In this document: positions 14,969 to 39,003 of the stretch, piece after piece
Position numbering within the stretch: position 1 is the first letter of the stretch
Layout of the letters: each line of letters starts with the position of its first letter
Source: an uncultured Erythrobacter sp.
Lineage (GTDB): Bacteria > Pseudomonadota > Alphaproteobacteria > Sphingomonadales > Sphingomonadaceae
DNA: 64,000 nucleotides
Assembly (NCBI GenBank): GCA_947488155.1
Contig: CANKYK010000001.1
Location: 620,001-684,000, forward strand
Reading direction: 5' to 3'
Notes under the pieces: generated by a model
Databases searched by the model: none
What the model saw: the letters and a program-made list of their open reading frames with translations, nothing else
Told to the model about the DNA's origin: nothing
Program-made: the position numbers and the translations under genes

Positions 14969-14980
14969 AAGCGGCAATGT

Positions 14981-15014
14981 AATGGCGGCTGGCGATGAGA
15001 GGCCAGCTGCCATT
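14981..15014 (+). terminator. Probable rho-independent-like terminator after P460 pair
   Basis: AATGGCGGCTGGC (14981-14993) pairs with GCCAGCTGCCATT (15002-15014) with one G-T wobble, an 8-base loop, and is followed by GCTTGTT. It sits 13 bases after the second P460 stop codon. Confidence 0.6.
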
Positions 15015-15288
15015 GCTTGTTCGCAAGAATTGCTATCCGTTTGAAAATGTGAAGATCAATATCGGCCTAAGTCGGGCTGGCATGTTGCGGTGCAAAGTTG
15101 CAAATATTGCAAGCCACACCTAGACACCTGAGATGAAAATCGACTGTGTTCAACCTGAAGACCATATCTCGCGTCCTCCATCAGAACTCTGCCCTAGGGC
15201 AGTTTTTTGAAGAATGATGGCATCGGTTGCAATGCGTGATCGATGCTCTTTTACGACGGCGATAAAATCATAGCTTAGGAGGGATCAC
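15015..15288. other. Intergenic region upstream of LysR gene
   Basis: About 270 bases (320 counting the terminator) without a gene. Relatively AT-rich near the LysR start, where AGGAGGGA at about 15277-15284 is the ribosome-binding site. No recognisable operator or promoter could be assigned. Confidence 0.35.
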
Positions 15289-16194: not shown

Positions 16195-16215
16195 ACACAG
16201 TCGACGCCGAGACCC

Positions 16216-19481: not shown

Positions 19482-19526
19482 CTTTCGCACAACTGGCGCA
19501 ATTCTGGTGTGCGATCCGGCTCTCGC

Positions 19527-20423: not shown

Positions 20424-20551
20424 ATGGCAATCCTATTATAGCAGGAATATGAAATAATCCATTTCCAAAATAGGCCATTCTTCTCTCAGCCGGATGAACT
20501 TATTTCCATCGGCATCGGCAGATCATCTGCTCAATTGAATGGAGAATACAC

Positions 20552-21103
20552 ATGTCACGCATCCCCACCCCCGCTACGATCGCAGACTCCCCAGAGGCTG
20601 CTCGCCCACTTCTTGAAGCGGTTGAGGCCTCTCTCGGTTCCGTGCCGAACCTCTTTCGCCTGGTTGCCAACAGCCCCATCACGCTTGAGGGAATGCTCGG
20701 TATGAATGGCGCGCTTTCCAAGGGCTCGCTTAACGCTGCGACCCGTGAACGCATCGCGCTGGCCATCGCCAACTATAATGGCTGCAGCTATTGCAACAGT
20801 GCGCACACCTATCTCGCCAAAAACGTCGCCAAGCTCGATGAAGCTGAGATCGCGTCCAATCGCTCAGGCCGGTCTACGGACGCCAAAGCCGATGCTGCTG
20901 TGCAGTTCGCACTCAAGATTGCGGAAGAGCGCGGCCGTGTGACCGAAGGCGATATTGCCACAGTCCGGCTCGCCGGCTTTTCCGATGCCGAGATCGTCGA
21001 GATCGTTGGTCACGTTGGATACAATATTCTGACCAATTACCTCAACGAAGTGTTCGATACGGAGATCGATTTCCCTGTTGTCGAGGCGGCCCGCGCAGCC
21101 TGA
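20552..21103 (+). CDS. Carboxymuconolactone decarboxylase / AhpD-like peroxidase-related protein
   Basis: 183 residues, GGAG ribosome-binding site. The CMD signature is present: [20 protein letters not shown] followed by SAHTYLAK, with the redox pair Cys78/Cys81 and His85 in the C-x2-C-x3-H layout of AhpD-type alkylhydroperoxidases. A second half reads [20 protein letters not shown]. It probably works in peroxide or thiol redox detoxification. First gene of a + strand run with DUF1348, glutathione S-transferase and a PPOX-reductase fusion; the divergent LysR is the likely regulator. Confidence 0.9.
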
Positions 21104-21110
21104 CCCCGTT

Positions 21111-21159
21111 GGGAGGTTCGCGGTATTCCCCTCCCCTCACCCTCCACCGCGAACCTCCC
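21111..21159. repeat. Intergenic inverted repeat, 14-base stem
   Basis: GGGAGGTTCGCGGT (21111-21124) and ACCGCGAACCTCCC (21146-21159) are exact inverted copies around a 21-base C-rich spacer. It lies between the AhpD-like and DUF1348 genes, 7 bases after the first stop. It may attenuate or stabilise the transcript. No U-run follows, so it is not a standard terminator. Confidence 0.6.
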
Positions 21160-21191
21160 TCCCCCCTTTCGCCCAATGCAGGAGTGAAACC

Positions 21192-21671
21192 ATGAAACAG
21201 AATGAAGCACCTCGCCCGCCGCTGCCACCGTTTACGCGTGAGACCGCAATCGAGAAGATCCGGCTTGCTGAAGATGGCTGGAACTCGCGCGATCCGGCGA
21301 AGGTTGCCCTTGCCTACACACCTGATAGCAAATGGCGCAATCGCGCCGAGTTTCCGCAAGGCCGCAAGGAAATCCAAGAGTTCCTGACCAGAAAATGGGC
21401 CAAGGAGCTCGACTATCGTCTGATCAAGGAGCTCTGGGCGTTCGATACGGACCGCATCGCTGTCCGCTATGCCTACGAATATCGCGACGATAGCGGCAAC
21501 TGGTTCCGCGCCTATGGCAACGAGAACTGGGAGTTTGATGCAAACGGATACATGGCCGTGCGCCACGCCAGCATCAACGAGCATCCGATTGCCGAAGAAG
21601 ATCGCAAGTTTCGCTGGCCACTTGGCCGTCGACCCGACGACCATCCGGGCCTGTCCGATCTTGGCCTTTAA
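21192..21671 (+). CDS. DUF1348 NTF2-like protein
   Basis: 159 residues from ATG 21192, with AGGAGTGA just upstream; the longer frame from 21078 would overlap the previous gene. Blocks typical of DUF1348 are present: [73 protein letters not shown] and [15 protein letters not shown]. This is a near-full-length member. Homologues are SnoaL-like proteins with no proven reaction. It is the fourth NTF2-like protein in this region. Confidence 0.9.
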
Positions 21672-21710
21672 CCAGTCAACCAATCAACAATTTTGAAAAA
21701 GGAATTACCT

Positions 21711-22358
21711 ATGAACACCAACTTCCCTGCCAACGCAGCCCCAATCAAGCTTCACCGCGTGGCCAAATCTGGCCACAGCCACCGGGCCGAACTGATGCTT
21801 GCCCTTCTCGACCTGCCATACGAAACGGTTGAAGTGGACATGGCGAATGGCGCTCACAAAGCACCTGAATTTCTTGCCATCAGCCCATTCGGGCAAGTTC
21901 CAGCAATCGACGATAACGGCACAATGCTGTCGGATTCCAACGGGATCATTGCCTATCTGGCAGACCGCTATGGCGACACCGCTGAATGGGCCGGGCGCGA
22001 TCCGGTCGAGACGGCCCAGATCCAGCGCTGGCTTTCCGTCGCAGCGGGTGAGATTTTCGCTGGCCCATGCTGTGCCCGTCTCGTCACCGTTTTTGGAGCG
22101 CCGTTCGATCATGAGGCCTGCATTGCAAAGTCCCATGCCCTGTTTGAGGTTATGGAAAAGCATCTTGAAGGCAAAAGCTTCCTCGTCGCCGAACGCCTGA
22201 CGCTCGCTGATGTCGCTGGTTACAGCTATATCGCGCATGCACCCGAAGGTGGTGTCAGCTTGGATGCCTACCCCAACATCCGTACTTGGCTTGGCCGGAT
22301 TGAAGCCCAGGATCGCTTTGTCGGAATGGCAACGTCGCCCATTCCTGTGGCGGCTTAA
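21711..22358 (+). CDS. Glutathione S-transferase
   Basis: 215 residues from ATG 21711 after an AAAAAGGA ribosome-binding site. N-terminal thioredoxin-like domain: IKLHRVAKSGHSHRAELMLA, with SPFGQVPAIDDNG (cis-Pro) and SDSNGIIAYLADRYG (the ES/DS-type glutathione-binding site). The C-terminal helical domain has the LTLADVAGYSYIAHA N-capping-box motif. It conjugates or reduces electrophiles with glutathione in the cytoplasm. It sits in the + strand run between DUF1348 and the PPOX-reductase fusion. Confidence 0.92.
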   Translation: MNTNFPANAAPIKLHRVAKSGHSHRAELMLALLDLPYETVEVDMANGAHKAPEFLAISPFGQVPAIDDNGTMLSDSNGIIAYLADRYGDTAEWAGRDPVETAQIQRWLSVAAGEIFAGPCCARLVTVFGAPFDHEACIAKSHALFEVMEKHLEGKSFLVAERLTLADVAGYSYIAHAPEGGVSLDAYPNIRTWLGRIEAQDRFVGMATSPIPVAA

Positions 22359-22439
22359 GCCAATCAGGGCTAATTTCCTCGCGAGCGCGGCTGATCGCAC
22401 GGTCAGCCGCGCCCAACATCGCCGATGAAAGGATCGAAA

Positions 22440-24419
22440 ATGACCGCAGGACATCCATGGCATAGCGGCGAGGCGTTGGTTCAAGAGCGCCGCGGCACAC
22501 CGAGCAACATTGTACTCTCGGTGCCAGATTATATCGAAAAGGATATGCCGCAACAGCACGCGGAGTTCTTTTCTGGACTGCCTTACCTGCCATTGGCGAC
22601 GCTGGATAAGCGGGGGCGGCCGTGGGTGAGTGTTCTGGTCACCATGTCCGATAGTGATCCTTCAATAGGCATCACAACATCTGGCCCCAACCAGACCGAT
22701 ATTATCGCTGAGGTGAACCCTCATGATCCGTTCGTTCGAGCGCTCGGACCAGACCAGAAACCTACCGATGATGATCGCCGTCTTTTTGCCGGAGTCGGGG
22801 TCGACTTCTCCAATCGTCGCCGCAACAAACTGGCAGGACTCATAGAGCCCATTTCACTCAGCACTATCGGCAAAGTTAGCCTGCGACTGATCTCCGATCA
22901 GCACCTGGGCAATTGCCCCAAATATATCACGGTTCGCTCGCTGGTGCATGAAAGCTGGGAGGCTGAGCTGGCCCTCGATAGCTTTGATGCGCTCACAGCG
23001 GCTTTGCCGCAGGCTTCAAAAGACCTGATTGCTCGGGCAAGCACCGTGTTTCTGGCGACAAAACACAGTGAGAACGCTGAGGATGCGTCTCTGGACCAAG
23101 GCGATATGGGCCTCAATCACCGCGGCGGGGCGCCAGGTTTTGTGCGGATGTATGAAGAAACGAGCGGTGACGGCGTCACCACCTATCTGATCCTACCAGA
23201 CCACTCTGGAAACCGTTTTTATCAGTCATTGGGCAATATCGAAACTGACAAGCAGGTCGGGTTGGCATTCCCGGATTTCACCACGGGCGATGTTCTCTAT
23301 ATCACCGGAGATGCTGAGAATCTGTACGATACAGAAGCAGAAGCAATCATGCCGAGGGTTGGCCTCCTGACCCGCATCCAAGTGACCGGGGCGGTCTTTG
23401 TAAAAGGCGCGCTCAACTTGCGACTAGTGTCAGAAGAACAGTATTCTCCTTACAACCCGCCAGTACGATATCTTCGGTCTGAATTGGACGCGATGGGGCA
23501 TGCGGTTGACGCGCTCGAAACGTCTAACCCGATAGGAGCAACGCTCGTCTCAACCGAGCAGATCTCCGCTACTATTCGCACATTCACCTTTGAATTGTCG
23601 GAAACGATTGAGGCGCCCATGCCGGGCGGATTCGGCATCTTCGATTTCTCGGGTATGCTGGATTCTGGGTATAGCCATATGAATGAGGCCAATCCCCAAT
23701 TGGTGAATGAAGACTTTGTTCGCACCTGGACCCTCTCAAGCGCGCCAGAGTTTGATGCAGAGAAAAACCTGTTCCGGCGGGCCAATCAGGTCAGCGTCAC
23801 GGTCAAACGCAAACGCGGCGGCCTCATGTCCAACTTCTTACACGAGTACGTGGCCCAACAGATCGAGCAACCAATGCAGGTGGACTTTAAAGGCGCTGGC
23901 GTGGGGTTTAGTTGCCTTACTCCAGATGCAGCAGGAGGCCCTCCGACTATTCCGGCGAAGATGCTCTGGGTCGCAGGCGGTGTTGGTATAACCCCGTTCA
24001 TGGCTATGTGGGAAGGCATAACGAAGATCGCAAAAGTGCTCCCTGATCAGCTGTCTTCCGAAATCGTTTTGGTGTTCTCCGGCCGCGGCGATGACATCAA
24101 CGTCTTGAGGCATTTTCTGGTGACCAGCAGCGCAGTGCCAGAAAGCCTCAACCTTCGCATCCTCGCTTTCCAAAGCGCGGACCATGCCTCGTCCGAGGAT
24201 GAAACTGCGCTGGATACCCTAATCCAGGACTTCCCGGGCGCTGCATTGAACATTGAACAAAGGCGTGTTCAACTCTCTGACTTAGAAGCAATCAAGGGCT
24301 TAACCGATACAGAGGTATTTCTGTGCGGGCCGGATCCCTTGATGGACTGGAGCAAGGACGCACTTCGCGAGCTCGGCGTCAACGAAACAAATATGCATCA
24401 AGAGCAATTTGCTTTCTGA
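22440..24419 (+). CDS. Two-module flavoprotein: PPOX domain fused to FNR-type reductase
   Basis: About 659 residues from ATG 22440 (AAAGGA 6-7 bases upstream; an in-frame ATG at 22425 is possible). The N-terminal half (about 35-320) is a PPOX split barrel with HAEFFSGLPYLPLATLDKRG, SNRRRNKLAG, HLGNCPKYIT and GLNHRGGAPGFV, paralogous to the gene at 16216. The C-terminal half (about 360-659) is a ferredoxin-NADP+-reductase module: RTWTLSSAP for FAD, LWVAGGVGITPFMAM for the nucleotide, and VFLCGPDPLM. It ends in MHQEQFAF without the plant-type 2Fe-2S domain often attached to such fusions. It likely moves electrons from NAD(P)H through FAD to an FMN-bound substrate site. Confidence 0.88.
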   Translation: MTAGHPWHSGEALVQERRGTPSNIVLSVPDYIEKDMPQQHAEFFSGLPYLPLATLDKRGRPWVSVLVTMSDSDPSIGITTSGPNQTDIIAEVNPHDPFVRALGPDQKPTDDDRRLFAGVGVDFSNRRRNKLAGLIEPISLSTIGKVSLRLISDQHLGNCPKYITVRSLVHESWEAELALDSFDALTAALPQASKDLIARASTVFLATKHSENAEDASLDQGDMGLNHRGGAPGFVRMYEETSGDGVTTYLILPDHSGNRFYQSLGNIETDKQVGLAFPDFTTGDVLYITGDAENLYDTEAEAIMPRVGLLTRIQVTGAVFVKGALNLRLVSEEQYSPYNPPVRYLRSELDAMGHAVDALETSNPIGATLVSTEQISATIRTFTFELSETIEAPMPGGFGIFDFSGMLDSGYSHMNEANPQLVNEDFVRTWTLSSAPEFDAEKNLFRRANQVSVTVKRKRGGLMSNFLHEYVAQQIEQPMQVDFKGAGVGFSCLTPDAAGGPPTIPAKMLWVAGGVGITPFMAMWEGITKIAKVLPDQLSSEIVLVFSGRGDDINVLRHFLVTSSAVPESLNLRILAFQSADHASSEDETALDTLIQDFPGAALNIEQRRVQLSDLEAIKGLTDTEVFLCGPDPLMDWSKDALRELGVNETNMHQEQFAF

Positions 24420-24936
24420 TGATGGGCAGGGGTGACAACAAAGATATCGCGAGAGTGTGTGGCGTTGGACATCTGCAGTGAGACGAATAGGCTAGTCCAG
24501 TTTCAATCTAACGACCAAGCCCGATCGATGACCAGCACCGACAGGCTTAAGTTCAAACCTAACTTAAATGCCAGTCTGCACGCAACGGATTGTCCGTCGC
24601 CACGTTGCCCGCTGCCCCACCATCAAGCATAAATAGCTCCATCAATTATCGATACCCTGACCGCCATTCGTTTGCACCACCCCCTCTTTCAGGACCGCAA
24701 ATGCGAATCACTTGCATTAGCAAGTGATGAGTGTAGGCGCGGCCAACACCACCAGTTCATTTGTTTAACTGTGAGGGGCGAGACCAGAGGCATGCCCAGA
24801 GAAATACAATGCGATTGGGCCGGTCAGATTGGCTGACTTCAAGTGCGCTCTCACCCGGAGAGATCGCCCTTCGCGATGACAAAAGGACAATCCTGCCAAG
24901 AAACCATTTGCAAGGAACAATTCTCTGGGTTAACTG
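24420..24936. other. Long intergenic region upstream of the zinc-type cluster
   Basis: About 515 bases with no convincing gene on either strand; short frames here lack ribosome-binding sites and coding-like composition. It contains the nested dyads at 24700-24728 and leads into the Zur-box-like dyad at 24937. Confidence 0.5.
24700..24728. promoter_or_regulatory. Two overlapping dyads (hairpin and metalloregulator-box-like)
   Basis: ATCACTTGC-ATTA-GCAAGTGAT (24707-24728) is a perfect 9-base stem with a 4-base loop. Overlapping it, AATGCGAATCACTTGCATT (24700-24718) is an imperfect dyad resembling alphaproteobacterial Fur-family boxes. Only one structure can form at a time on single-stranded nucleic acid. 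It may be the terminator of the upstream flavoprotein gene or an operator about 250 bases before the DUF1826 start. Confidence 0.4.
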
Positions 24937-24955
24937 AAATGATACGTTGTAACAT
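24937..24955. promoter_or_regulatory. Zur-box-like operator
   Basis: AATGATACGTTGTAACATT is a dyad of two 8-base half sites (AATGATAC / GTAACATT) with one mismatched pair and a 3-base centre. Preceded by GA, it matches the gammaproteobacterial Zur consensus GAAATGTTATANTATAACATTTC at most positions. It is 25 bases upstream of the TTG start of the DUF1826 gene, where repressor binding would block transcription. The identification as Zur rather than Fur rests on this pattern and on the DUF1826-MerC gene content. Confidence 0.7.
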
Positions 24956-24979
24956 TCTGCATAAGAGCTAGTCTCCAAA

Positions 24980-25582
24980 TTGTCCGAAATATTGGAATCC
25001 TGCGCGGCGGTTTCTGCCTCCTGCGACGTTTTTAGCGCGGTGCGTGACCCCGAGTGCAATCTGGCGATCTGGGAACGCGAAACCTCAAGCAGCTTCGCAA
25101 ACCTGTTGTCTGATGGATTGGACGACGTGCGTTTCGAAGCATCCTTGTCGCACTTACGCGACCGCCTCGAACAAGCCTTGAGCGACGCCGGATATGTAAA
25201 TCAGATTGAACGAGATGAATTGATTGCCGACATTGTGATATTGGCAGGCCACTATTGCAGCGTCCTTAGCCTCAGTGACCTCGAGGTGAGGCTTGAGGTT
25301 GTAACCACCAATTCCTGCCGCAAATGGCATGCTGACTATGTCAAAGCACGCCTGATCACGACCTATGTCGGCTCTGGCACTCAATGGTTGAACTCTGCAG
25401 ATTCTGACCGGGTCAAGAACGCAGCGGAGCCCGTCCGTATCAACTCCATGTCAGCGGGCGATGTTGGCATCTTCAAGGGTAAGCTCGCAACGACCAACGC
25501 AGCCATTCACCGCTCGCCACCGATCGCGGGAACGGGCGAGAAGCGCCTCCTTTTGGTCCTCAATCCCACAGAGGGCAATTGA
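24980..25582 (+). CDS. DUF1826 protein, first gene of zinc-type cluster
   Basis: 200 residues from a TTG start. The family pattern is clear: NLAIWERETS near the N-terminus, LEVVTTNSCRKWHADYVKAR in the middle, LITTYVGSGTQWL, and the diagnostic end HRSPPIAGTGEKRLLLVLNP. DUF1826 genes are frequently next to zinc-starvation genes such as COG0523 GTPases and Zur-regulated transporters. The reaction is unknown; the conserved HxD and HRSPP region could bind metal (inference). The MerC gene starts 1 base after the stop. No good Shine-Dalgarno is visible, and a leaderless or weakly translated start is possible. Confidence 0.88.
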   Translation: MSEILESCAAVSASCDVFSAVRDPECNLAIWERETSSSFANLLSDGLDDVRFEASLSHLRDRLEQALSDAGYVNQIERDELIADIVILAGHYCSVLSLSDLEVRLEVVTTNSCRKWHADYVKARLITTYVGSGTQWLNSADSDRVKNAAEPVRINSMSAGDVGIFKGKLATTNAAIHRSPPIAGTGEKRLLLVLNPTEGN

Positions 25583-25583
25583 C

Positions 25584-25940
25584 ATGGACAGCACAGCAAG
25601 GATCGACCGGGCGGCGATAGGCTTTAGCTTGGTCTGTGTAGTGCATTGCGCGCTCCTACCCGTGGCCGCGATCAGCCTGCCAATGCTTGGCTTGCTGGCG
25701 GACGCAGAGTGGGTCCATTGGTTGTTTGTGTCGCTCTCAATCCTTGCAGCGATCACAATTGCCTTAATCGCGCATGATGCGCACGCGCCGTCATTCATGA
25801 TCCCAGCATCTATCGGGATTGGCTTGCTGCTGCTTGCGCTTGTCTCAGAATCTTTGGGCCTGGGCGAAACCGCTCCAACAGTTTCCGGCGCCATGCTTTT
25901 GGCTAGCGCGCACCTCTATCGACTTTCCCGAAATCACTAA
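25584..25940 (+). CDS. MerC-domain membrane protein
   Basis: 118 residues from ATG 25584. The N-terminal half reads IGFSLVCVVHCALLPVAAIS, the MerC helix pattern with a C-x2-HC motif that binds soft metals. Four hydrophobic helices fill the protein. Classical MerC transports Hg(II) inward. Here there is no mer operon, and the coupling to DUF1826 (stop-start spacing 1 base) and the Zur-like box point to zinc uptake or zinc sensing instead (inference). It is slightly shorter than mercury-resistance MerC. Confidence 0.85.
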   Translation: MDSTARIDRAAIGFSLVCVVHCALLPVAAISLPMLGLLADAEWVHWLFVSLSILAAITIALIAHDAHAPSFMIPASIGIGLLLLALVSESLGLGETAPTVSGAMLLASAHLYRLSRNH

Positions 25941-25963
25941 TTCAATTCTGAACGGATATTCTA

Positions 25964-28147
25964 ATGCACCTTAATCGGCTCCTCGCCTCATCCTCGTTCA
26001 TCATCCTTAGCGTTATCAGCGCTCCAGCAATTGCTCAGGACTTTGAGACCTCCGAAAGTGCCGAAACGGCAGGTAGCGAGATTATCGTGACCGATCGCCG
26101 GGCGTATCGCGGCGATTTCGAGCCGCTGGAAACGCCAAATGCGGACCAGATCATTGATGAAGATCTGCTGAGGGATGCCAACGCGCTCGATCTAAGCCAA
26201 GCACTCGATCTATCGGCCTCAGTCGCGCGTCAAAACAATTTCGGCGGGCTGTGGAATTCGTTCTCTGTTCGCGGCTTCCAGGGTGACATCAATCTGCCGA
26301 GCGGTTTCCTGGTCAATGGCTTTAATGCCGGACGCGGATTTGGTGGTCCGCGTGATCTGGCCGGTATCGAAGCGGTTGAAGTCCTCAAGGGGCCACGCTC
26401 TGCACTGTATGGCCGCGGCGAACCGGGGGGCACGGTCAATCTGATCACCAAGCGCCCACAGTTCGAGACGTCTGGATACGTGCAGTTCCAAGGCGGCTCG
26501 TTCGATTTCTATCGCGGCGATGTCGATCTGCAAACGACATTGGGTGACAATGTCGGCGTCCGTGTTGCGGGCTTTTACGAGGATGCGGGCAGTTTCCGCG
26601 AGACAGTGGAGACCGAACGCTTTGGCATCTATCCGTCGATCACAGCACGTCTGGGCGAGAGCACCGCGCTGACATACGAACTGGAATACACCGCGCAGGA
26701 CATTCCATTTGATCGAGGCGTCGTTTTCTCAGATGAGTTCGGTTTCAGCCCGCGCCGCACCTTCACAGGCGAACCCGGCGACGGTCCAATTGAGACCGAA
26801 GTCCTCGGCCACCAGCTTGAATTGCAACACGATTTCTCGGACAATTGGAGCCTGCTGGCAGGTATTGGCTATCGCGACACCTCGCTCACCGGGAACGCCT
26901 CTGAAAACAATTTCGGTGGCCGCCAAACCTTTTTCATCGATGGGCAGACGATTTCGCGTTTCTTCCGATTCCGCGATTTCGACTCCGAATACTTCGTCGC
27001 GCGGGCGGAGCTGGCCGGTCAATTCGACACCGGCTCGCTCCGCCACAACCTTATCGTTGGTGCGGATTATGACCGCTTCGAGAACAGCTTGTTTATCCTG
27101 CGTTTCCGGTCTGGCAGCATCGGTGGAAGACCAATCAGCGATCTTGATCCGGCAGAATTCCTGCTACTCGATGCCTTTAACCCGGTCTTTGGCCAGTTTC
27201 CGACGCCGGTACCGGGACCGAACACGGACCGAGAGGAAGTGCTCAAAGGCTTTGGTTTCTACATCCAGGATCAGATTGAGATTACCGAACGATTCCAGAT
27301 CCGTATCGGTGGGCGCTTCGATGATTTTGAGCAGGACCTGACCAACCTGCGGGCAACACCAGCAACCACAATCACGACCAATGATGATCGCTTTTCTCCG
27401 CAAGTTGGTGCGGTCTATCAAGTCGACGACGGGTTCAGCATCTACGCGTCTTACGGTGAGGGTTTCCGCCAACAGACCGGCTCGAACTTTGAAGGCAATC
27501 AGTTCGCACCGAACATCACCGAATCGTTCGAATTCGGCGTGAAGGCCGACCTCGGTACCTATCTCGATAACGTCCAAGGAATTGTCACGTTGACCGCATT
27601 CCAAGTCGATCAGAGCAATATCTTGGTGAATGACGACAGTCCGGCGGCGACCGCAGCGGGCTTCTTTTCCATCGATGCGGGTGAAGCACGCAGCAGAGGC
27701 ATCGAATTCGACGCCAATCTCGCCTTTGACAGCGGTTTCAATCTCTTCCTGTCCTATGCCTACACCGACGCCGATTTCCAGACGTCGCAGCCCGACGCCG
27801 ATTTTGGCGCATTGATTGAGGCTGGTGACCCGCTGATCAACTCCCCTGATCACCAGCTCAGCATTCTGATGAGCCAGGACTTTGACGTTTCGGACGTGCC
27901 AGTCACGATCGGCGGCCGGATGCTGCATGTGGGCGAACGCCTTGGCTTCACCGGCTTCGATTTCTTCCTGCCTGACTACACGATCTTCGGCCTGTTCGGA
28001 GAAGTCGAGGTTGCCGATGGCTTCATTATTCGCGGGGACATCGAAAACCTGTTTAATGAAACCTATTTCACCAATTCATTCGCCGATGTGTGGGTGCAGC
28101 CTGGCGCCCCTACTACGGCGCGCGTTTCGGCACGGTTCTCGTTCTAA
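25964..28147 (+). CDS. TonB-dependent receptor of siderophore-receptor type
   Basis: 727 residues. Signal peptide MHLNRLLASSSFIILSVISA with cleavage near AIAQD; TonB-box-like SEIIVTDRR; plug with FSVRGFQGDINLPSGFLVNG and EVLKGPRSALYGRGEPGGTV; a barrel ending in TTARVSARFSF. The VRGF and GRGEPGG forms are those of the TonB-siderophore receptor subfamily (FhuE/FpvA-like). Given the operon context, the ligand may be a zinc-metallophore complex. Spacing to MerC is 23 bases and to the ABC ATPase 18 bases, so a single transcript is likely. Confidence 0.93.
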   Translation: MHLNRLLASSSFIILSVISAPAIAQDFETSESAETAGSEIIVTDRRAYRGDFEPLETPNADQIIDEDLLRDANALDLSQALDLSASVARQNNFGGLWNSFSVRGFQGDINLPSGFLVNGFNAGRGFGGPRDLAGIEAVEVLKGPRSALYGRGEPGGTVNLITKRPQFETSGYVQFQGGSFDFYRGDVDLQTTLGDNVGVRVAGFYEDAGSFRETVETERFGIYPSITARLGESTALTYELEYTAQDIPFDRGVVFSDEFGFSPRRTFTGEPGDGPIETEVLGHQLELQHDFSDNWSLLAGIGYRDTSLTGNASENNFGGRQTFFIDGQTISRFFRFRDFDSEYFVARAELAGQFDTGSLRHNLIVGADYDRFENSLFILRFRSGSIGGRPISDLDPAEFLLLDAFNPVFGQFPTPVPGPNTDREEVLKGFGFYIQDQIEITERFQIRIGGRFDDFEQDLTNLRATPATTITTNDDRFSPQVGAVYQVDDGFSIYASYGEGFRQQTGSNFEGNQFAPNITESFEFGVKADLGTYLDNVQGIVTLTAFQVDQSNILVNDDSPAATAAGFFSIDAGEARSRGIEFDANLAFDSGFNLFLSYAYTDADFQTSQPDADFGALIEAGDPLINSPDHQLSILMSQDFDVSDVPVTIGGRMLHVGERLGFTGFDFFLPDYTIFGLFGEVEVADGFIIRGDIENLFNETYFTNSFADVWVQPGAPTTARVSARFSF

Positions 28148-28165
28148 GGACAGGTAAGGTTGACC

Positions 28166-28885
28166 ATGACATCTCCGCTTGAAGCCCGTTCACTGGTCTT
28201 GGTGCGTGAGGGGAACACCGTGCTCGACGGTGTTTCTTTCACAGCCGAGCAAGGCGAAATTTTCGCTCTGCTCGGCGGCAATGGTGCCGGCAAATCCAGC
28301 ACATTGCTCACCTTCCTCGGCTTTCTTGACCCGTCCGGCGGCGAAGTGTTGGTGAATGGTACAAGCGTGACAAGTGACATTGCCGCCGCCCGGAATGCGA
28401 TCGCATACCTCCCCGAGGCCGCGTCGCTCTATGGACATATGACAGCCTACGAAAATCTCGACTATTTCCTTGATCTTGCTGGGAAGTCGGCGAGCAAGGA
28501 TGAGATCGACGCCGCGCTTGATCGCGTGGCTCTACCGCAAGAGGCTCGCACCCGCCGGTTGCAATCCTATTCCAAGGGGATGCGCCAAAAGACCGCCATC
28601 GCCCTCGCTTTGCTTCGTGAGACCCCGATCCTGCTCCTTGATGAGCCGACGTCTGGCCTCGACCCTGTCGCGATCGATGAATTTCACGATCTGGTGAAGA
28701 CACTGGCCGAGGGCGGGCAGACCGTCCTGATGGTGACCCACGATGTTTATGGGGCCTGCCAGGTTGCCGATAGGGTTGGTTTGCTCCGCCACGGCAAGCT
28801 GGTCGGCAGCTTCGCGGCAGAGAACGGCAAGCGGATCGATACAGAAACGGTGCATGCTGCATTCGCAGAGAGGCAAGCGGTATGA
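28166..28885 (+). CDS. ABC transporter ATP-binding protein
   Basis: 239 residues from ATG 28166 with GGTAAGGT upstream; an in-frame TTG at 28160 is the alternative. Walker A GGNGAGKSS, Q-loop region, signature YSKGMRQKTAIA, Walker B ILLLDEPTSGLDP and the H-loop THDVYG are all intact. It belongs to the ABC-2 (CcmA/NosF-like) class, which drives membrane subunits encoded downstream. The next gene overlaps by 4 bases. Confidence 0.95.
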   Translation: MTSPLEARSLVLVREGNTVLDGVSFTAEQGEIFALLGGNGAGKSSTLLTFLGFLDPSGGEVLVNGTSVTSDIAAARNAIAYLPEAASLYGHMTAYENLDYFLDLAGKSASKDEIDAALDRVALPQEARTRRLQSYSKGMRQKTAIALALLRETPILLLDEPTSGLDPVAIDEFHDLVKTLAEGGQTVLMVTHDVYGACQVADRVGLLRHGKLVGSFAAENGKRIDTETVHAAFAERQAV

Positions 28886-30318
28886 GCACGATCACGCGCA
28901 TAGCGCGCGAGGAATGGCGGCTATGGCTGCGCTCACGGGTTGTGGTCGCTGCCGCGCTGATCGTCGCGGTGCTGATTGCTGCCACCAGCATGCTGACGGC
29001 GGGTCGCATCGCCGATGAGCAGTCTCAGCGCACCCAGCAACAGATCGCAGCGGAGCAAACGTTCTTCGCGCAACCGGACCGCCATCCGCACCGCATGGTC
29101 CACTACGGCCACTATGCATTCCGTCCGCCGCCCCCACTCGCGGTGTTCGAGCCGGGCGTGGATGCGGTAACAGGTCAATCAATCTTCCTCGAAGGACACC
29201 GCCAGAACACCGCCATGTTCGCCGACACCAAGGCGGCAGCCGATCTGGGCGGGTTTGCGGCACTGACCCCGGCAAGCCTGTATCAATTGCTTCTACCTTT
29301 GCTGCTGATTGTCTTGGGGCATGCCATGTTCCTGCGCGAGCGGGAGAGCGGGACGCTGGCGGTCATGCTCGCTCAGGGGCAATCAGGTACGAAGCTTGCG
29401 TTGGGTAAGGCCGCAGCTTTGCTTGCCGTGATCGCAATCTTCATGGTCCCGTTGGTCTTTGTGGCTGTCTATTCGATCAGCCTCGGCGAAAGCGCGCTCG
29501 CGGCAGGCTCAATGGTCGCTGGATACTTCGTCTACCTCTGTATTTGGGGTGCAATTGTCCTTGCCGCCTCAATCCTGCTCAAACAGCGCTCGGTTTCGCT
29601 TGGCGCTCTGATTTTTGTGTGGCTGTTTGCTGCGCTCATAGTGCCGCGCTTCGCAATCAACGCCAGCAGTGCTGCTATCGATGCTCCCGGCAAGATCGAG
29701 AGTGACCTCGTGATGCTCGCCGAGCAGCGAAAGCTGGGTGACGGGCACAATGCCGCGGACCCCGCCTTCATGCAGCTTCAGGCCGAAGTGCTGGAGCAAT
29801 ATGAGGTGGAGACCATTGAGGAACTGCCGATTAATTGGCGCGGCGTGGTTGCCTCCTATTCGGAGGCTGAGCTGACCGATCTGCTCAATTCCTACGCTGA
29901 GGAGCGCATGGGGCTAGAGGCGAGCCAGTCGCGCATCTTCGGACTGTTCGGGCTAGCGTCGCCGACCATCGCGATCAGTTCGGCTTCGCGCACGCTGGCT
30001 GGAACTGATCTCGCCACCCACCACCGGTTTCTGCGCGAAAGCGAGGCGCTGCGATTTGGCTTTGTTCAGGCGCTCAATGAAAAACACGCAACAGAGCTCG
30101 ATTATGCGGCAGACATAAACCGCAACGCTGACGCTGAGGCTTCCCGCCGGGCGCGCGTAAATGCCAGTGCATGGCAGGTACTCGACGAGTTCCGTTTTGA
30201 GCCGGACGGCGCAGACGCGCGCCTGGAACGGGCATTGCTATCGTTTGTCATACTGCTCGCCTGGCTCACCGCTGCTGGCGGGATCGTGTATGGTGCAGCA
30301 CGCCGAGTGAGGCTCTGA
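28882..30318 (+). CDS. ABC-2 permease, DUF3526-type, with His-rich extracytoplasmic segment
   Basis: 478 residues. One N-terminal helix (about 21-42) precedes a large extracytoplasmic domain, then five helices (about 140-260) and a final C-terminal helix, with the reentrant MFLRERESGTLAVMLAQGQS element of ABC-2 permeases. The extracytoplasmic segment RHPHRMVHYGHYAFRPPPPL has four histidines at 68, 70, 74 and 77 before the usual PPxPLA motif of DUF3526 proteins. The His cluster could bind zinc (inference). Start overlaps the ATPase stop (ATGA), and the stop overlaps the next start (TGATG). Confidence 0.88.
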   Translation: MSTITRIAREEWRLWLRSRVVVAAALIVAVLIAATSMLTAGRIADEQSQRTQQQIAAEQTFFAQPDRHPHRMVHYGHYAFRPPPPLAVFEPGVDAVTGQSIFLEGHRQNTAMFADTKAAADLGGFAALTPASLYQLLLPLLLIVLGHAMFLRERESGTLAVMLAQGQSGTKLALGKAAALLAVIAIFMVPLVFVAVYSISLGESALAAGSMVAGYFVYLCIWGAIVLAASILLKQRSVSLGALIFVWLFAALIVPRFAINASSAAIDAPGKIESDLVMLAEQRKLGDGHNAADPAFMQLQAEVLEQYEVETIEELPINWRGVVASYSEAELTDLLNSYAEERMGLEASQSRIFGLFGLASPTIAISSASRTLAGTDLATHHRFLRESEALRFGFVQALNEKHATELDYAADINRNADAEASRRARVNASAWQVLDEFRFEPDGADARLERALLSFVILLAWLTAAGGIVYGAARRVRL

Positions 30319-31568
30319 TGGTTAGAAATCTCATCCGCGAAACCCGCTTCCTCGCAAAGGATCGCGGCGCAATTTTCTGGCTGTTTCTCGCTTTCCTCCT
30401 CTCGGTCGTGGCGGTGTCTTTCGGCGTCGCAGAGGTTCGTGAACAACGTGAAACCATCGCGGCCCTGCTCGAAGAGGACGCGGCCGACCGCGCAAATGCA
30501 CTCGAAGGGCAAGAAGATTGGGGCAGCGCCGCCTATTACGCGTTCCACCTGACCTATGCGCCACCATCTGACTTTGCATTTGCAGCGATGGGGCAGCGCG
30601 ATAGCAGCCCGTGGAAGCACCGCGTGCGCATGCTCGCATTGGAAGGGCAAATCCATGAGGCCGATACACGCAATGCGGATTTTGGACTCGTCGGACGGTT
30701 CGATTTCGCTTTCCTTGCGGCGTCGGTTGCGCCGCTGCTGCTGATCCTACTGCTCTATGACCTGCGGGCATCGGAGCGGACCATGCGTCGCCACGACCTG
30801 CTGGTGGCGACCGCCGGATCACCGCGATCGCTTTGGCTGCCGCGTGCGCTGGTGCGTGTCGCTGCGCTGGCATTGCTGCTGCTCATACCCCTCTGGATAG
30901 GAACCTTGATCGAAGGGGCTGCGATGGGGCTTGCTTTGCAGGCGACGGCCATAATGGTCGGCTCGCTGCTGATCTGGTGGCTGATTGTTGATCTGGTTAG
31001 CCGCGTAGACGCGTCGCCATCCATCCTTCTGACGTCACTGATCGGCCTGTGGCTTGCACTCGCGATCGTTATTCCTGCTGTTTCAAAGGCGGCCATCGAA
31101 GCGGGCAACCCTGTGCCCGACGGCGGCGAAATCCTGCTGCTACAGCGCGAGACGGTGAACGATGCGTGGGATTTGCCCAAGGAAGCAACGATGGAGCCGT
31201 TCGTTGAGCGGCACCCAGAACTCGCTGACCACACCGAGATCGAAGAAGGCTTTGAATGGAAGTGGTACTACGCCTTTCAACAAGTCGGCGACCAAGTGAC
31301 AGAACCGCTCGTAGAGGAATACCGCGATGTGCGCCTTGCGCGGGACCGGCAGGCCGGGACCGCTTCGCTATTGTCCCCAATGTCGATGGTCGAGCGCGCT
31401 TTTGAGCAGCTGGCCGAGACCGATGCCCGCTCCATGATCGCATATGAAGACCGCGTTCGCGATTACCACGCTGATCTGCGGGCCTTTTACTATCCGCTGA
31501 TGTTTCCTGAGGAGCCATATGATAGCGAGCTACTGGATGACTTGCCCAGTTATACTCCTGCGTCGTAA
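30318..31568 (+). CDS. ABC-2 permease, second DUF3526-type subunit
   Basis: 416 residues with the same plan as the preceding gene: an N-terminal helix FWLFLAFLLSVVAVSFGVAE, an extracytoplasmic domain with YAPPSDFAFAAMGQRDSSPW, then a block of helices containing APLLLILLLYDLRASERTMR. It lacks the His-rich segment of its partner. Two different DUF3526 permeases and one ATPase form one transporter. Similar trios occur with TonB-dependent receptors; whether they export a metallophore or import a metal complex is unknown. Confidence 0.87.
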   Translation: MVRNLIRETRFLAKDRGAIFWLFLAFLLSVVAVSFGVAEVREQRETIAALLEEDAADRANALEGQEDWGSAAYYAFHLTYAPPSDFAFAAMGQRDSSPWKHRVRMLALEGQIHEADTRNADFGLVGRFDFAFLAASVAPLLLILLLYDLRASERTMRRHDLLVATAGSPRSLWLPRALVRVAALALLLLIPLWIGTLIEGAAMGLALQATAIMVGSLLIWWLIVDLVSRVDASPSILLTSLIGLWLALAIVIPAVSKAAIEAGNPVPDGGEILLLQRETVNDAWDLPKEATMEPFVERHPELADHTEIEEGFEWKWYYAFQQVGDQVTEPLVEEYRDVRLARDRQAGTASLLSPMSMVERAFEQLAETDARSMIAYEDRVRDYHADLRAFYYPLMFPEEPYDSELLDDLPSYTPAS

Positions 31569-31577
31569 CGGGTCACC

Positions 31578-32651
31578 ATGATTGGTTTTGTCTCTCGATT
31601 GGTCGCTGCCGCTGGTTTAGCGCTTTATGCATCAGTCGCATTGGCTGCTCCGGCGGCTCCATTTATGATTGGGCAAGAAGAAGTCCAGCCAGGATCGCGG
31701 GTGGACCTGCGATTGGCAATCGGTGCTGCGGAGGATGAGCCAGCAACTTTCATCCCCATCACGGTCATTCATGGCAACGAAGACGGGCCTGTACTCGCGG
31801 CAGTTTCCGGTGTGCATGGATACGAGTTTGCGCCGATCCTTGCGGCGGACCGCTTGGCCGATCGAATTGATCCCAAAGACCTCTCCGGCACGCTGGTCAT
31901 CGTTCGCATCGCCAATATCCCCGCTTTTGAAGCGCGATCACCCTATGTGAACCCGATCGACCGAAAAAACCTCAACCGCTCCTTTCCCGGCAGCGCACAA
32001 GGCAGTTCAACCGAACGGATCGCGGATATGTTGTCGCGCGAGGTCGTCGCGCGCGCCGACTTCCTAATGGACATACACAGCGGTGACGGCGCAGAATTCC
32101 TGGAGGCGTTCATCGGTGTCTATGGAGGTCCTCTATCGACCGATTTCGAGCAAGCGCTGGAAGTAGCGCGTGGCTTTGGCTTTCCAAATGTCGTGCGCTA
32201 CAAAATGAACACGCAGGAGCAAGTCGACACACGCCGCACGCTTAACCGTCAGGGCGTCGCCACCGGCATTCCAACAATCCTGGTGGAGATCGGACAGAAT
32301 GGCAGCCGTAAAGAAGAGCATATTGAGGCGATTGTGACCGGGGTTGAGAATGCACTCGGGACCTTGGGCATCTGGAACAAGCCGCGCCAAAACGTGCCGC
32401 CGGTGTTGCGATTGTTTGAGAGCACGACCGGTGTTAGCGCGTCACATTCTGGTCTCTTCTATCCGGCCGACCCGGAACGTCGCTATTTCTTTGAAGGCGA
32501 TCTGATCGGCACGATCCGCGACTATTCAGGGCGCGAAGTCGAACGCCTACATTCACCCATAGACGGATATGCTCTTTATGGCCTCCGAGGACCACCCGTC
32601 CGCGCGGGCGATGGCGTCATTACTATCGGGAACCCTGTAGATGACTTTTGA
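31578..32651 (+). CDS. Secreted succinylglutamate desuccinylase/aspartoacylase-type zinc peptidase
   Basis: 357 residues. Signal peptide MIGFVSRLVAAAGLALYASV cleaved near ALAAP. The M14-like AstE/AspA zinc site is intact: H80 and E83 in SGVHGYEFA and H168 in MDIHSG. NPIDRKNLNRSFPG is the substrate-carboxylate/Arg region, and TILVEIGQNG holds the catalytic Glu. The C-terminal domain (about 275-357) is the usual beta domain. It is 9 bases after the second permease. It probably deacylates or cleaves an amide in the periplasm, for example in a metal-binding small molecule, and would itself need zinc. Confidence 0.88.
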   Translation: MIGFVSRLVAAAGLALYASVALAAPAAPFMIGQEEVQPGSRVDLRLAIGAAEDEPATFIPITVIHGNEDGPVLAAVSGVHGYEFAPILAADRLADRIDPKDLSGTLVIVRIANIPAFEARSPYVNPIDRKNLNRSFPGSAQGSSTERIADMLSREVVARADFLMDIHSGDGAEFLEAFIGVYGGPLSTDFEQALEVARGFGFPNVVRYKMNTQEQVDTRRTLNRQGVATGIPTILVEIGQNGSRKEEHIEAIVTGVENALGTLGIWNKPRQNVPPVLRLFESTTGVSASHSGLFYPADPERRYFFEGDLIGTIRDYSGREVERLHSPIDGYALYGLRGPPVRAGDGVITIGNPVDDF

Positions 32652-32752
32652 AATGCCCTTCTTTGCTCGTTGCCAAGGGTACGGTTGAGGATCCGAAAAT
32701 TGCGTCGAATGCGGAATGGGTGCTTTGTATCTCTTGGACACTCATAGAGAAA

Positions 32753-32842
32753 TGGCGGAGACGGTGGGATTCGAACCCACGAAAGAGTTGCCCCTTTACA
32801 CACTTTCCAGGCGTGCGCCTTCGACCACTCGGCCACGTCTCC
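32753..32842 (-). tRNA. tRNA-Ser (anticodon GGA)
   Basis: The - strand folds as a long-variable-arm tRNA: acceptor GGAGACG/CGTCTCC, anticodon stem CACGC/GTGTG with loop CTGGAAA (anticodon GGA), variable arm around GGGGCAACTC, T-arm GTGGG-TTCGAAT-CCCAC, discriminator G and an encoded CCA (revcomp of 32753-32755). It reads serine UCC/UCU codons. It sits alone between the zinc-type cluster and the cyclophilin gene. Confidence 0.96.
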
Positions 32843-33045
32843 GCATGCTCTATCCGAGCAGGATGCCCCTAGCGATGCGAAATTTGCTTCGCAACCGTGC
32901 TCAAACAACAAAGTGTTAGCACAAACAAAGAAGCGTGCGCATAGGGCGCATGCGCGCCCGTCTACGCCCACCTCAATTAGGCAGGCTCGCGCCTCTAGCT
33001 GCCCTCTGCTTGCCGCGCAAGCGGCGAAGTGGCACGGTGGCATTT

Positions 33046-34110
33046 ATGAAGTCACAAATCCTATTCTGCGCGGGCCTTCTTACCGCCGCCATATCGATAC
33101 CCACGAGCGCTGCGCTCGCTCAAGAAGCACCGGAGGGCGCACCCTCCCCGAACGAGATCGTTGATGCTGCGCCGCAGGCTGAGTGGGTGACAATTGCCCC
33201 AGAGGATTTGCTGGTGATGACGCTCGCCCCGGATGCGCAAGGGGCCTCGCGCAAAGTGGTGATCCAGCTGATGCCTGCGCCATTCTCCCAGGGCTGGGTC
33301 GGCAATATCCGCAAGCTCGCCCGCGCAAAGTGGTATGACGATATCACCGTCAACCGCGTGCAGGACAATTACGTCGTGCAATGGGGCGATCCCAATTATG
33401 ACAATCCGGAAGGCGAAGGCGAGGCAAAGCCGCTGCCCGAGGGGCTGAGCGTAATGGGTGAGGAGGAGTATGTTGTCACAAAACCCAACAACGTAATGCG
33501 AAAATTGCATGAAAGCTGGGTCAGTAGATTCAATTCGGAATATCCTGACCGCCTCCCTTTGGTGGGATACGAAGCGGGCGACCTGAGAATAGCCGACGTC
33601 CCAATTGGGGTTTACGCCGCGTTCAATCACGGCTTTCCATACTCGTTCAAGTTGATCACGAGCCTCTTCGATGGGTCTTTCGCGCCCGCCCATTGCTACG
33701 GCATGGTCGGCGTGGGTCGCGGATACTCGCCGGACACCGGCTCTGGCGCAGAGCTTTACACTGTGATCGGCCATGCGCCGCGTCACTTGGATCGCAATAT
33801 CGCGCTGGTGGGCCGGATCATTTTCGGCATGGAGCATCTCTCCAGCCTGCCGCGCGGGAGCGGCGCTCTGGGCTTCTACACCGCAGAGGAAGCAGACAAG
33901 CGCACGCCGATCCTCTCCGTTCGCGTCGCATCCGACCTGCCGGACGGTGAGCGGCCTCAGTTCGAGTATCTCTCGACGGAAAGCGATACCTTTGCTCAGT
34001 ATGCTGATGCACGCGCGAACCGACGCGATCCGTTCTTTATCGTGCCCGCTGGCGGCGCGGACATCTGCAACATCCCGGTACCAGTGCGGCCAATCTCTGC
34101 TGGCGAATGA
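33046..34110 (+). CDS. Secreted cyclophilin-type peptidyl-prolyl isomerase
   Basis: About 354 residues from ATG 33046, chosen because MKSQILFCAGLLTAAISIPT is a signal peptide; the longer frame (32935) has none. The family pattern appears in VVIQLMPAPFSQGWVGNIRK, LARAKWYDDITVNRVQDNYV, VQWGDP, HCYGMVGVGRG and a VGRIIFGMEHLSSLPRG end block. This is the long sphingomonad periplasmic form, larger than E. coli PpiA (about 190 residues), because of an inserted middle region (about 120-200). It speeds prolyl isomerisation during folding of exported proteins. Catalytic Arg is likely R in NRVQDN; other active-site residues are not all classical. Confidence 0.82.
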   Translation: MKSQILFCAGLLTAAISIPTSAALAQEAPEGAPSPNEIVDAAPQAEWVTIAPEDLLVMTLAPDAQGASRKVVIQLMPAPFSQGWVGNIRKLARAKWYDDITVNRVQDNYVVQWGDPNYDNPEGEGEAKPLPEGLSVMGEEEYVVTKPNNVMRKLHESWVSRFNSEYPDRLPLVGYEAGDLRIADVPIGVYAAFNHGFPYSFKLITSLFDGSFAPAHCYGMVGVGRGYSPDTGSGAELYTVIGHAPRHLDRNIALVGRIIFGMEHLSSLPRGSGALGFYTAEEADKRTPILSVRVASDLPDGERPQFEYLSTESDTFAQYADARANRRDPFFIVPAGGADICNIPVPVRPISAGE

Positions 34111-34427
34111 GTGTGGCGCAGATCACGCAAACAGGCCCGCTGTGGCTGTGGACCGCCTCCAACGGGGTCAGCTGGCACTTTATCACGATTAATGGCGAGG
34201 CGGGGGAGACCATCGCCGCCAATGAGGCAATGCGGCGTCTGGAGCTGGGGCGGAAACGCGGGTTCCGTTCGCAAAAGGTGGAGGCCAAGATCGGCGAAAC
34301 GATCTGGACGACCTCGTGCTTTCCCAGCGATGATGGCGCCTGGTTACTGCCTGTGAAGGCGCCTGTGCGGAAGGCTGAGGGGCTGGCGGAAGGCAGCCAA
34401 GTTCAGGTCACTCTGGCGCTAATCTGA
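34107..34427 (+). CDS. DUF1905 protein
   Basis: 106 residues. It overlaps the cyclophilin stop by 4 bases (ATGA). The pattern GPLWLWTASNGVSWHFITIN, FRSQKVEAKIGETIWTTSCF and WLLPVKAPVRKAEGL is that of DUF1905, a small beta-barrel domain often fused to YdeI-like sequences. Cytoplasmic, function unknown. Coupling to the cyclophilin gene is probably incidental. Confidence 0.85.
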   Translation: MSVAQITQTGPLWLWTASNGVSWHFITINGEAGETIAANEAMRRLELGRKRGFRSQKVEAKIGETIWTTSCFPSDDGAWLLPVKAPVRKAEGLAEGSQVQVTLALI

Positions 34428-34448
34428 GCGCCGAGGGGTCCAGCGCGC

Positions 34449-36293
34449 TTAGCCCACCACCTTAAGCTCTGTATCCTGAGAATTCAGATCGCTCGCGCTG
34501 CGGCGCACGTCCCCGAGGAAACTCGTGGCTTTTTCGCGCAGTGCATCGGCGTGAATGTCAAGCTCGCTGGCGGATGCCAAAACCTGGGCAGAGGCGGATC
34601 CGGTCGCCAGCGACGCCTCACGCAAATTATCCAGCTGCGCATCCACTTGCGAAGTGCCATTGGCAACGGTGTCGATATTGCGCGCCAGATCTTCGCCAGA
34701 AATTGACTGCTGATCGACGGCGGTCGCAATCACGACCGAGGCGCGTTCAAGCTCGTTGATCTGCGTAACCATAGAATTGAGATCTGCCACGCTCGACTGG
34801 GTGGAGCTTTGCATCGCGCCGATCTTCTCAGTCACGCTGTTGGTCGCATTACTGGTCTGGGTCGCCAGCTCTTTCACTTCGGAGGCGACAACGGCAAACC
34901 CGCGTCCCGCCTCGCCGCCGCGTGCAGCCTCAATAGAAGCGTTAAGCGCGAGCAGATTGGTGCGTTGAGCAATGGTCTGGATCATCTCGACGATGCTGCC
35001 AATCTCATCGGCCGCACTCGACAGATTTGTCATCTTAAGGTTGGCTGCGGTCACCAACTCGCTGGCCTCGCGCGCCAAAGTGGCAGAAGCGCCGGCTTGC
35101 TTGCTGATCTCTGCAATCGACAGTGCAAACTCATCCGTTGCCGCCGCCGCCGCCGTCACATTGCGGGTGGTTTCCTGCATAGAGGTGGAGGCCTCTTGCG
35201 ATTGCTCAGCTGAGCTCTCCGCAAGCCTCACCATGCTTTCCGAGGTTTCTTTGAGCTGCGCAGAGGCTGCGCCAACGGCATCAATCACTTCCCCGATTGA
35301 AACTTCAAACCCTCCAGCAAGCCTTTCTAACAGCTCACCTTTATCGGTGCGCAGGCGGTTCGATTCCTGTGCGAGCGTTTGCTGCTGAGCAAGCTCGCGT
35401 TCTGCGGCGCTGGCGCGTTCAGCGGTTAGCTGACTTAGCTCCAGAGCATCCTGGCGGAACACCGCAAGCGCGCGGGCCATAGCGCCAATTTCATCTTCAC
35501 GCTGGGCGTGGGGAATCTCGGTCTGGTCATCACCGCTCGCGATACGCTCCATCGCATCGGTAATGCTGCGCACCATGCGCACCACATTGCGAATGATAAC
35601 GCGGCCGCCAAAGAAGGAACCAATTACGGTGACGGCCAATAGGGCCATAAAGGCAAGGATTGTCTTGCCGACAATGTTCAGCAGATCGCCAGCCTTTCCG
35701 CTGACAAACACGTGAAGGTCATCAACATAGACACGCATCTCGCTGTAGAGAGTGCCCACCTCTTTTTCGACTTCACGGGCTGCGGACGTATCAGCGCCAG
35801 CACCGGCCGCAATCGCATCAAGGCGTGCATCCGCATTCTCAATCCGCTCACGGTAATTCTCAAGCGATAAGCGAATGTCAGTTGGCATCATTTCGCCGCC
35901 ATAGTTGAGCGCTGTTGCAATATCCTCAGCAGCGTCTTCGAGCTTATCAGAGGCGCGCTCATACCCTGCCTGTTCGCCGCGCTCCGTCACATCGCGCAAT
36001 GACACATAGGCATCGCCCAGCGCCAGTGCAGCATGGCCACTGCGTACCTCTGCAGAGGCAAGCACGGTTTGCCTTTCGCCTTGATTGCCGATGTAGGCAA
36101 ATCCGCTCAGGATAATGAAGGCAACGATCAGCACCATGGCCGCGTTGCTGAAAATCGCGATCCGCAGATTTCCGACCAGAGAAAAACGATCGAGCCAGCG
36201 CCTGCGGCGATCTTCACCTGCGCTCAGATCCGCGTCATCTGCGGCCAGTTCCTCGCCGGTGGCGGGCACGAAATCATGCGCTGAAAAGCTCAA
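34449..36293 (-). CDS. Methyl-accepting chemotaxis protein
   Basis: 614 residues. A cytoplasmic N-terminal tail of about 45 residues is unusually long and acidic ([20 protein letters not shown]). TM1 (about 46-70) and TM2 (about 215-240) enclose a periplasmic four-helix-bundle-type sensor of about 145 residues. HAMP (about 240-300) is followed by the signalling domain with the hairpin tip around [20 protein letters not shown] and [15 protein letters not shown]. No CheW/CheR-binding pentapeptide is visible at the C-terminus (ends ELKVVG). It feeds a CheA kinase not encoded in this window. Confidence 0.94.
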
Positions 36294-36428
36294 TGTATTT
36301 TCCTCATACCGCCGCTTGCGGGCGTTTGTGGTTTCTTACATGAGGGGTAATACGAGGGCGGGTTTAAGGAGTGGTAAACGCCAATTTAACCATCAAAGCC
36401 CGCGAGAAGCCAACAATTGAGGCGCTGA

Positions 36429-36788
36429 TCAACCGCGCTGCATCAGCTCAATCCGATTGCCGAAAGGGTCGCTGGTGAAAAAGCGTGAGTAGCCTTCAAC
36501 CGGCTTGTCATCGCGCGTATCCATGCCCGCTTCCATCAGTTTTTCCCGAAGGCCCGCAAGATCGTCAACCAGCATAGCGGGATGAGCTTTTCGCGCTGGA
36601 GAGAAATCCGGATCGACTCCGATATGCAGGCTCACTCCGCCCGCCTCAAACCAACATCCACTGCTTGATAGGTTAGCTGGCTTTGGCACCTCGCGCATGC
36701 CCAGCAAGCCGACGAAAAATGCACGCGCTTGATCCTCTCCACCAGCCGGAATGGCCAGTTGAACGTGATCAATACCGACTATTCCCAC
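36429..36788 (-). CDS. VOC-family (glyoxalase-like) protein
   Basis: 119 residues. VGIDHVQLAIPAGGEDQARA starts the first beta-alpha-beta-beta-beta module, and DPFGNRIELMQ closes the second, with metal-ligand candidates His8, His55 (SLHIGV) and Glu115. Single-chain VOC proteins act as dimers: dioxygenases, glyoxalases or resistance proteins. The stop-start junction with the RelA/SpoT gene overlaps by one base, so it is cotranscribed, but no functional link is evident. Confidence 0.85.
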   Translation of the reverse strand: MGIVGIDHVQLAIPAGGEDQARAFFVGLLGMREVPKPANLSSSGCWFEAGGVSLHIGVDPDFSPARKAHPAMLVDDLAGLREKLMEAGMDTRDDKPVEGYSRFFTSDPFGNRIELMQRG

Positions 36789-38878: not shown

Positions 38879-39003
38879 ACCGGTTTCTATGATGCGGCGA
38901 AAACGCTCAATATTGCAAAACAATTCCGCAACCGAGCAAGTAAATATCAAACTCTTAGCGTCATAAGGCCCTGGCACAGTGACGAGATTGAGGGAATTGA
39001 CGC

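Follow-up and report, generated by a model that had tools for sequence, protein, structure and literature searches.

Gene order and operator of the locus

The window analyzed here is a 64,000-nucleotide stretch from the 3.2 Mb genome of an uncultured Erythrobacter sp. (the source genome), whose named nearest protein relatives are found in Erythrobacter and other Sphingomonadales; it contains a putative zinc-acquisition operon of seven plus-strand genes (24980–32651), separated by successive gaps of 1, 23, 12, −4, −1, and 9 bases. These genes encode a DUF1826 protein (24980–25582; PF08856, 162.6 bits), a MerC-family membrane protein (25584–25940; PF03203, 63.7 bits against a cut-off of 27.6), a TonB-dependent receptor of the siderophore/metallophore type (25964–28147; TIGR01783, 264.6 bits against a cut-off of 223.5), an ABC-2 type ATPase (28160–28885; assigned by open reading frame (ORF) and family search, with an alternative ATG start at 28166), two DUF3526 ABC-2 permeases (permease 1, 28882–30318, 108.4 bits; permease 2, 30318–31568, 111.6 bits), and a likely periplasmic AstE/AspA-type hydrolase (31578–32651; AstE_AspA_cat, 96.4 bits). 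All seven families and the tight packing are as described in an initial annotation of this DNA, which had attributed the locus to zinc starvation under the control of Zur.

A Zur-type operator, the dyad AATGATACGTTGTAACATT (24938–24956, strand not assigned), lies 23 bases upstream of the TTG start of the DUF1826 gene and shows one mismatch to GTTA-N5-TAAC. The initial annotation had recognized this dyad at 24937–24955, but the best register is shifted rightward by one base. Scored with a matrix built from four Caulobacter Zur sites, the dyad reaches 16.1 bits, the best value in the 64 kb (runner-up, 8.8), and a 61-site matrix, composed of sites selected from other genomes of the family, gives 24.9 bits, which beats three quarters of the 61 matrix-building sites; with the latter matrix, the runner-up in the window reaches 9.7 bits and the maximum in 20 Markov resamples of the window is 15.6 bits. 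A scan of the sequence for consensus promoters and terminators returned nothing exceeding shuffled sequence.

Three further sites with no more than two mismatches were identified in the source genome, two of which precede a TonB_C ORF and a second MerC gene. The former (L133:4149–4167, genome position C2:441148) lies 17 bases upstream of the earliest possible start codon of the TonB_C gene (L133:3388–4131), which may instead begin at a later one, and the latter (L134:3813–3831, C1:1373812) is located 18 bases before the MerC gene (L134:3850–4221). The two-mismatch site at C3:49475 (L135) scores 10.8 bits with no gene start found behind it, and was taken as a chance match; genomic sites with three mismatches were not above a reversed-pattern control (19 versus 21 per strand). 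The source genome also encodes a second FUR-family protein with Cys pairs (L003), which we label a putative Zur. On contig C3 (54.7 kb), a multicopper-oxidase-like gene stands beside a CsoR-like regulator (L135:1–1640; both named by eye).

Recurrence of the operator and core genes in relatives

Homologous loci were examined in two sets, which overlap by at least three loci (L012/L166, L021/L167, and L034/L169) and whose counts ignore kinship between genomes: a family sample, comprising the best 40 of 56 permease-1 match places outside the source genome, with some genomes repeated, and a named set of 80 loci from many phyla, 78 of which have a usable promoter window. The locus-best Zur-type site falls inside the cluster promoter window in 28 of the 40 family loci (1.9 expected from length alone; 1 to 16 with 12 column-permuted matrices) and in 37 of the 78 named loci (length prediction, 2.7; permuted controls, 2 to 23; with an earlier, cruder definition of the promoter window, 34 of 74). 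Permuting the columns of a matrix gives an imperfect control, and the observed counts exceed every value so obtained. Promoter-window sites of at least 11 bits are present at 21/40 family and 35/78 named loci, and a receptor gene is found near permease 1 in 31/40 and 70/80, respectively. The dyad, which the initial annotation had proposed seeking upstream of homologous loci, therefore recurs there and also marks the TonB and second MerC genes of the source genome, and comparative sequence supports the proposed zinc starvation response and Zur control.

Sites were also sought upstream of two other genes of the operon. MerC was found in 292 of 298 family genomes, and a sample of the 30 loci with the best hidden Markov model scores, chosen independently of any site, has the locus-best Zur-type site within 320 bases upstream of MerC in 24 cases (expected, 3.1; controls, 3 to 12), and 15 of the 30 carry upstream sites of at least 11 bits. 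In a sample of 29 DUF1826 loci, in which several matches begin inside the gene, the observed count is higher than the permuted-matrix controls, which reach 11/29. Across the two samples, L228 and L249, whose short upstream flank could not be judged, were counted as misses, and at least two sites are shared (the L211/L257 and L224/L261 regions).

Characteristics of the encoded proteins

The nearest solved relatives of the receptor among its PDB matches are pyochelin, ferrichrome, and ferrioxamine/pseudopaline receptors, and the protein contains 6 His and no Cys. Its siderophore-type class is compatible with the uptake of a zinc–metallophore complex, as first suggested; the ligand itself we infer. 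The PDB matches include the entries of CntO and FoxA, and the receptor resembles CntO/pseudopaline and other siderophore systems in class, whereas the operon has no ligand-synthesis gene among its seven genes. A search for opine dehydrogenase (PF10100) gave no match in the source genome, and likewise none in the control genomes.

A structure model of permease 1 (mean predicted local distance difference test score, 88.1) has NosY as its nearest fold, followed by ABCA/ABCG-type proteins, and its further residues relative to NosY may represent periplasmic insertions. NosY serves copper-site assembly in the periplasm. Unlike NosDFY(L) of nitrous oxide reductase assembly, the trio in the window has two different permeases, with approximately 200 further residues in permease 1 that include DUF3526, and the locus combines Zur-type control and an outer-membrane receptor with no NosD in the operon. 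The segment HPHRMVHYGH of permease 1 (codons H68–H77, 29083–29112, plus strand) is predicted to be periplasmic; permease 2 lacks this cluster. All four histidines originally pointed out (H68, H70, H74, and H77) are present, but a fully conserved four-His motif was rejected: in a family alignment of 39 permeases, H70 and H106 (codon 29197–29199) are His in all 39, H74 in 38, and H68 in 34, whereas H77 is His in only 17 and so falls outside the fixed motif, to which H106 belongs. The 80 named loci could not be used to assess H68, H70, and H74 because the scan pattern contained those residues. A word search for DUF3526 in the available literature collection found no paper.

The AstE-type enzyme retains H80 and E83 (HxxE), H167, and E237, which are invariant in 15 aligned sequences and which, from the AstE/AspA family, we take to be the zinc site and catalytic Glu; the intact motifs described initially thus hold for this protein. 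Solved N-acetyl-diaminobutyrate deacetylases match its profile, and it shares the catalytic domain and metal-site positions of DoeB and the AstE/AspA deacylases, from which it differs in having a signal-peptide-like N terminus (judged by eye) and in being encoded by the last gene of a zinc operon. An orthologue of at least 65% is found in 4 of 298 family genomes, always beside the trio, and the next match is at 31%. Among 23 close loci (22 named loci with permease similarity above 600 bits and L027, whose permease is in two pieces), permease 2 is followed by an AstE-type gene in 12, by a Peptidase_M14 in L027 and L028, by a Peptidase_S9 in L010, and by none or an unclear one in 8. The hydrolase slot thus appears exchangeable, and its occupation by differing enzymes that cleave amides or peptides suggests a ligand that needs breakage. 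In L017:8025–9194, L018:8037–9197, L019:8037–9197, and L032:8087–9247, an HGSNAT_cat/Acyl_transf_3 acyltransferase (Pfam assignment run on L017) lies between the receptor and the ATPase, and L017, L018, and L019 have no AstE after the trio.

In DUF1826, an HxD…H triad and a later Arg (H117, D119, H177, and R189) are invariant in 37 sequences, and the predicted fold is of the Fe(II)/2-oxoglutarate dioxygenase type; the protein may therefore modify a protein or ligand as a dioxygenase. DUF1826 is mentioned beside Zur in the accessible parts of PMC5786701 and PMC2770081. In MerC, each of C18, H21, and C22 (CxxHC), H45, H64, E95, and H110 is shared by no fewer than 29 of the 32 alignment rows, one of which is misread. 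This mercury-transporter-like protein is a possible inner-membrane zinc importer. A whole-word literature search combining MerC, Zur, and zinc uptake returned nothing on the subject, judged by title. Clear ABC-3 permeases are present in 5 of 298 family genomes; an initial figure of 139/298 was reduced to five because all the others score below 33 bits. In the source genome, none is clear, the best ABC-3 match (PF00950) being 20.6 bits over positions 89–223 of 258, and ZnuA (PF01297) has no match in this genome, the one searched for it. The source genome therefore differs from those with ZnuABC or AztABCD in lacking a clear ABC-3 permease and a ZnuA-type binding protein; probable Zur-controlled zinc acquisition is a feature shared with these systems.

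A probable zinc-acquisition operon of the Caulobacter kind and its alternatives

In Caulobacter, the accessible part of PMC4176598 reports that Zur, together with zinc, represses both the receptor gene znuK and the ABC-2 genes znuGHI and binds their promoter region, and that znuK mutants fail on 850 µM ethylenediaminetetraacetic acid, growth being restored by added zinc; a review, also accessible in part, counts znuGHI as an ABC-type system for zinc uptake (PMC6103462). The window locus resembles the Caulobacter crescentus system (CC1517–CC1520), by gene content rather than sequence identity, in having a receptor gene that adjoins those of an ABC-2 ATPase and a pair of permeases, a Zur-type operator, and DUF3526, a domain (PF12040) for which Caulobacter vibrioides, alone among 14 control genomes, gives a match at the level of the whole genome. 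Caulobacter vibrioides is also the one control without an ABC-3 match. The initial annotation could name no zinc system of this composition, but Caulobacter znuK–znuGHI has the same core, so the core of the operon is of a known kind. The two listed Caulobacter operators are reverse complements, which suggests that receptor and trio diverge from a shared site, whereas the window locus is a single co-directional operon that adds DUF1826, MerC, and AstE. The sequence evidence consists of the order of the genes, the operator, catalytic motifs that are intact, the return of operator and core genes in relatives, and predicted folds. The locus is very probably an operon of this kind, controlled by Zur and serving zinc acquisition, and it appears to be an enlarged version of the Caulobacter zinc-scavenging system.

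In the mechanism that we propose, Zur would likely repress the operon and zinc depletion would switch it on; the receptor would bring a zinc chelate, presumably with a metallophore, into the periplasm, where its ligand would be cleaved by the AstE-type hydrolase; the NosY-like ABC pair, working on the periplasmic side instead of pumping zinc inward, would spend ATP to free the metal or pass it on; and MerC would likely carry zinc across the inner membrane. This chain as a whole is tentative and falls a little short of probable. Several observations weigh against it. MerC also occurs outside the operon, has no match in the Caulobacter control, and could act in either direction. A NosY-like fold says nothing about direction, pumping being compatible with the resemblance, and a Pfam search of all seven genes found no NosD. 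Eight of the 23 close loci have no AstE or an unclear case, which makes ligand hydrolysis accessory. The DUF1826 site test ignores the shared ancestry of genomes. Retention of the genes without the dyad, named in the initial annotation as a finding that would speak against zinc control, occurs in part: in 41 of 78 named loci the best site lies outside the promoter window (21 labelled Gammaproteobacteria and 10 Alphaproteobacteria), and three of the 37 promoter matches score below 6 bits; regulation, and perhaps the metal, may thus differ in part of the group.

The nature of the trio can be read otherwise. ZnuGHI could be an importer that works without a binding protein and takes zinc or a zinc–ligand complex into the cytoplasm, with MerC and AstE as side activities; this agrees with the place given to znuGHI in the accessible part of PMC6103462, with Zur repression in Caulobacter, with the absence of a ZnuA match in the source genome, and with a conserved His cluster of permease 1 that could load zinc from the periplasm, but the nearest folds are those of NosY and then ABCA/ABCG-type proteins, and no znuGHI transport assay was found in the accessible part of PMC4176598, and we consider such an importer rather unlikely. 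Efflux pumps are among the ABC-2 folds near permease 1, and Pfam-tested flanks revealed an outer-membrane efflux protein after the trio in L041 and an HlyD-type protein before it in L078, as would be expected if the trio exported or recycled emptied ligand in the manner of siderophore recycling pumps; the operon in the window contains neither an efflux partner nor a ligand-synthesis gene, which renders this function quite improbable here.

The system could also serve copper or some other metal, Zur-type control then being incidental or one of several inputs, but this is very improbable: the NosY fold, the CruR-like ORFs before the receptor in several relatives, and the 41 named loci discussed above favor it, but the window locus has a Zur-type site and no CruR-like ORF, the same site type marks TonB and MerC genes in the source genome, and zinc restored the growth of the znuK mutant in Caulobacter (PMC4176598, accessible part). 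Zinc acquisition through the proposed chain bears on the route that zinc takes over the inner membrane of bacteria that lack ZnuABC. Extended to the family, whose genomes nearly all lack ZnuABC-type permeases and in which zinc would enter the cytoplasm via a Zur-controlled MerC while the DUF3526 trio, being no importer, would act as a NosDFY-like periplasmic zinc stripper driven by ATP and helped by an exchangeable hydrolase, the proposal is unlikely to hold in full; the MerC route is its boldest element. Its testable parts are the NosY-like permease with a periplasmic His cluster, the near-universal and mostly Zur-marked MerC, and a hydrolase slot that points to the ligand. Four points go beyond the initial annotation: the predicted resemblance of permease 1 to NosY, the predicted dioxygenase fold of DUF1826, a wider role for MerC, and the exchangeable AstE slot. 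DUF1826, a recurrent zinc-starvation gene, gains a predicted enzyme class.

Small ORFs in relatives and flanking regions

Short, exported-looking CruR/DUF2946-like ORFs with HxH, CxxC, and a C-terminal RAPP are located between a Zur-like site (11.3–15.7 bits) and the receptor at L021:6659–6964, L034:6065–6373, L041:6627–6974, L055:6347–6685, and L171:3073–3381 (reoriented), with a weaker case at L042:6629–6982 (site, 10.4 bits); the CxxC and C-terminal RAPP pattern is absent from positions 19001–39000 of the window. CruR functions in copper sensing in Bordetella (PMC9426467, accessible part), and a CruR-like ORF behind a Zur operator might provide a second, translational metal control. Gammaproteobacterial loci that mostly lack Zur sites (L031, L032, L033, L045, L046, L049, and L079) encode a different small protein ahead of the receptor, which contains HEH or HxH and a single Cys and ends in an RPPPTGPPS-like sequence; those of L032 and L033 have no Pfam match, and the same type of protein is found in L038 behind an 18.3-bit Zur-like site.

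Composition shows no step at the locus that would indicate a genomic island. A tRNA-Ser (gga) gene (32753–32842, minus strand) lies directly past the operon end, and this neighbor and the patchy presence of the locus (41/298 family genomes) may hint at insertion at the tRNA gene. Upstream of the operon, positions 22425–24419 encode a large protein with PNPOx_N and NAD-binding reductase domains. In L031, a second ABC–DUF3526–DUF3526-like set (12681–16303) follows directly behind the first.

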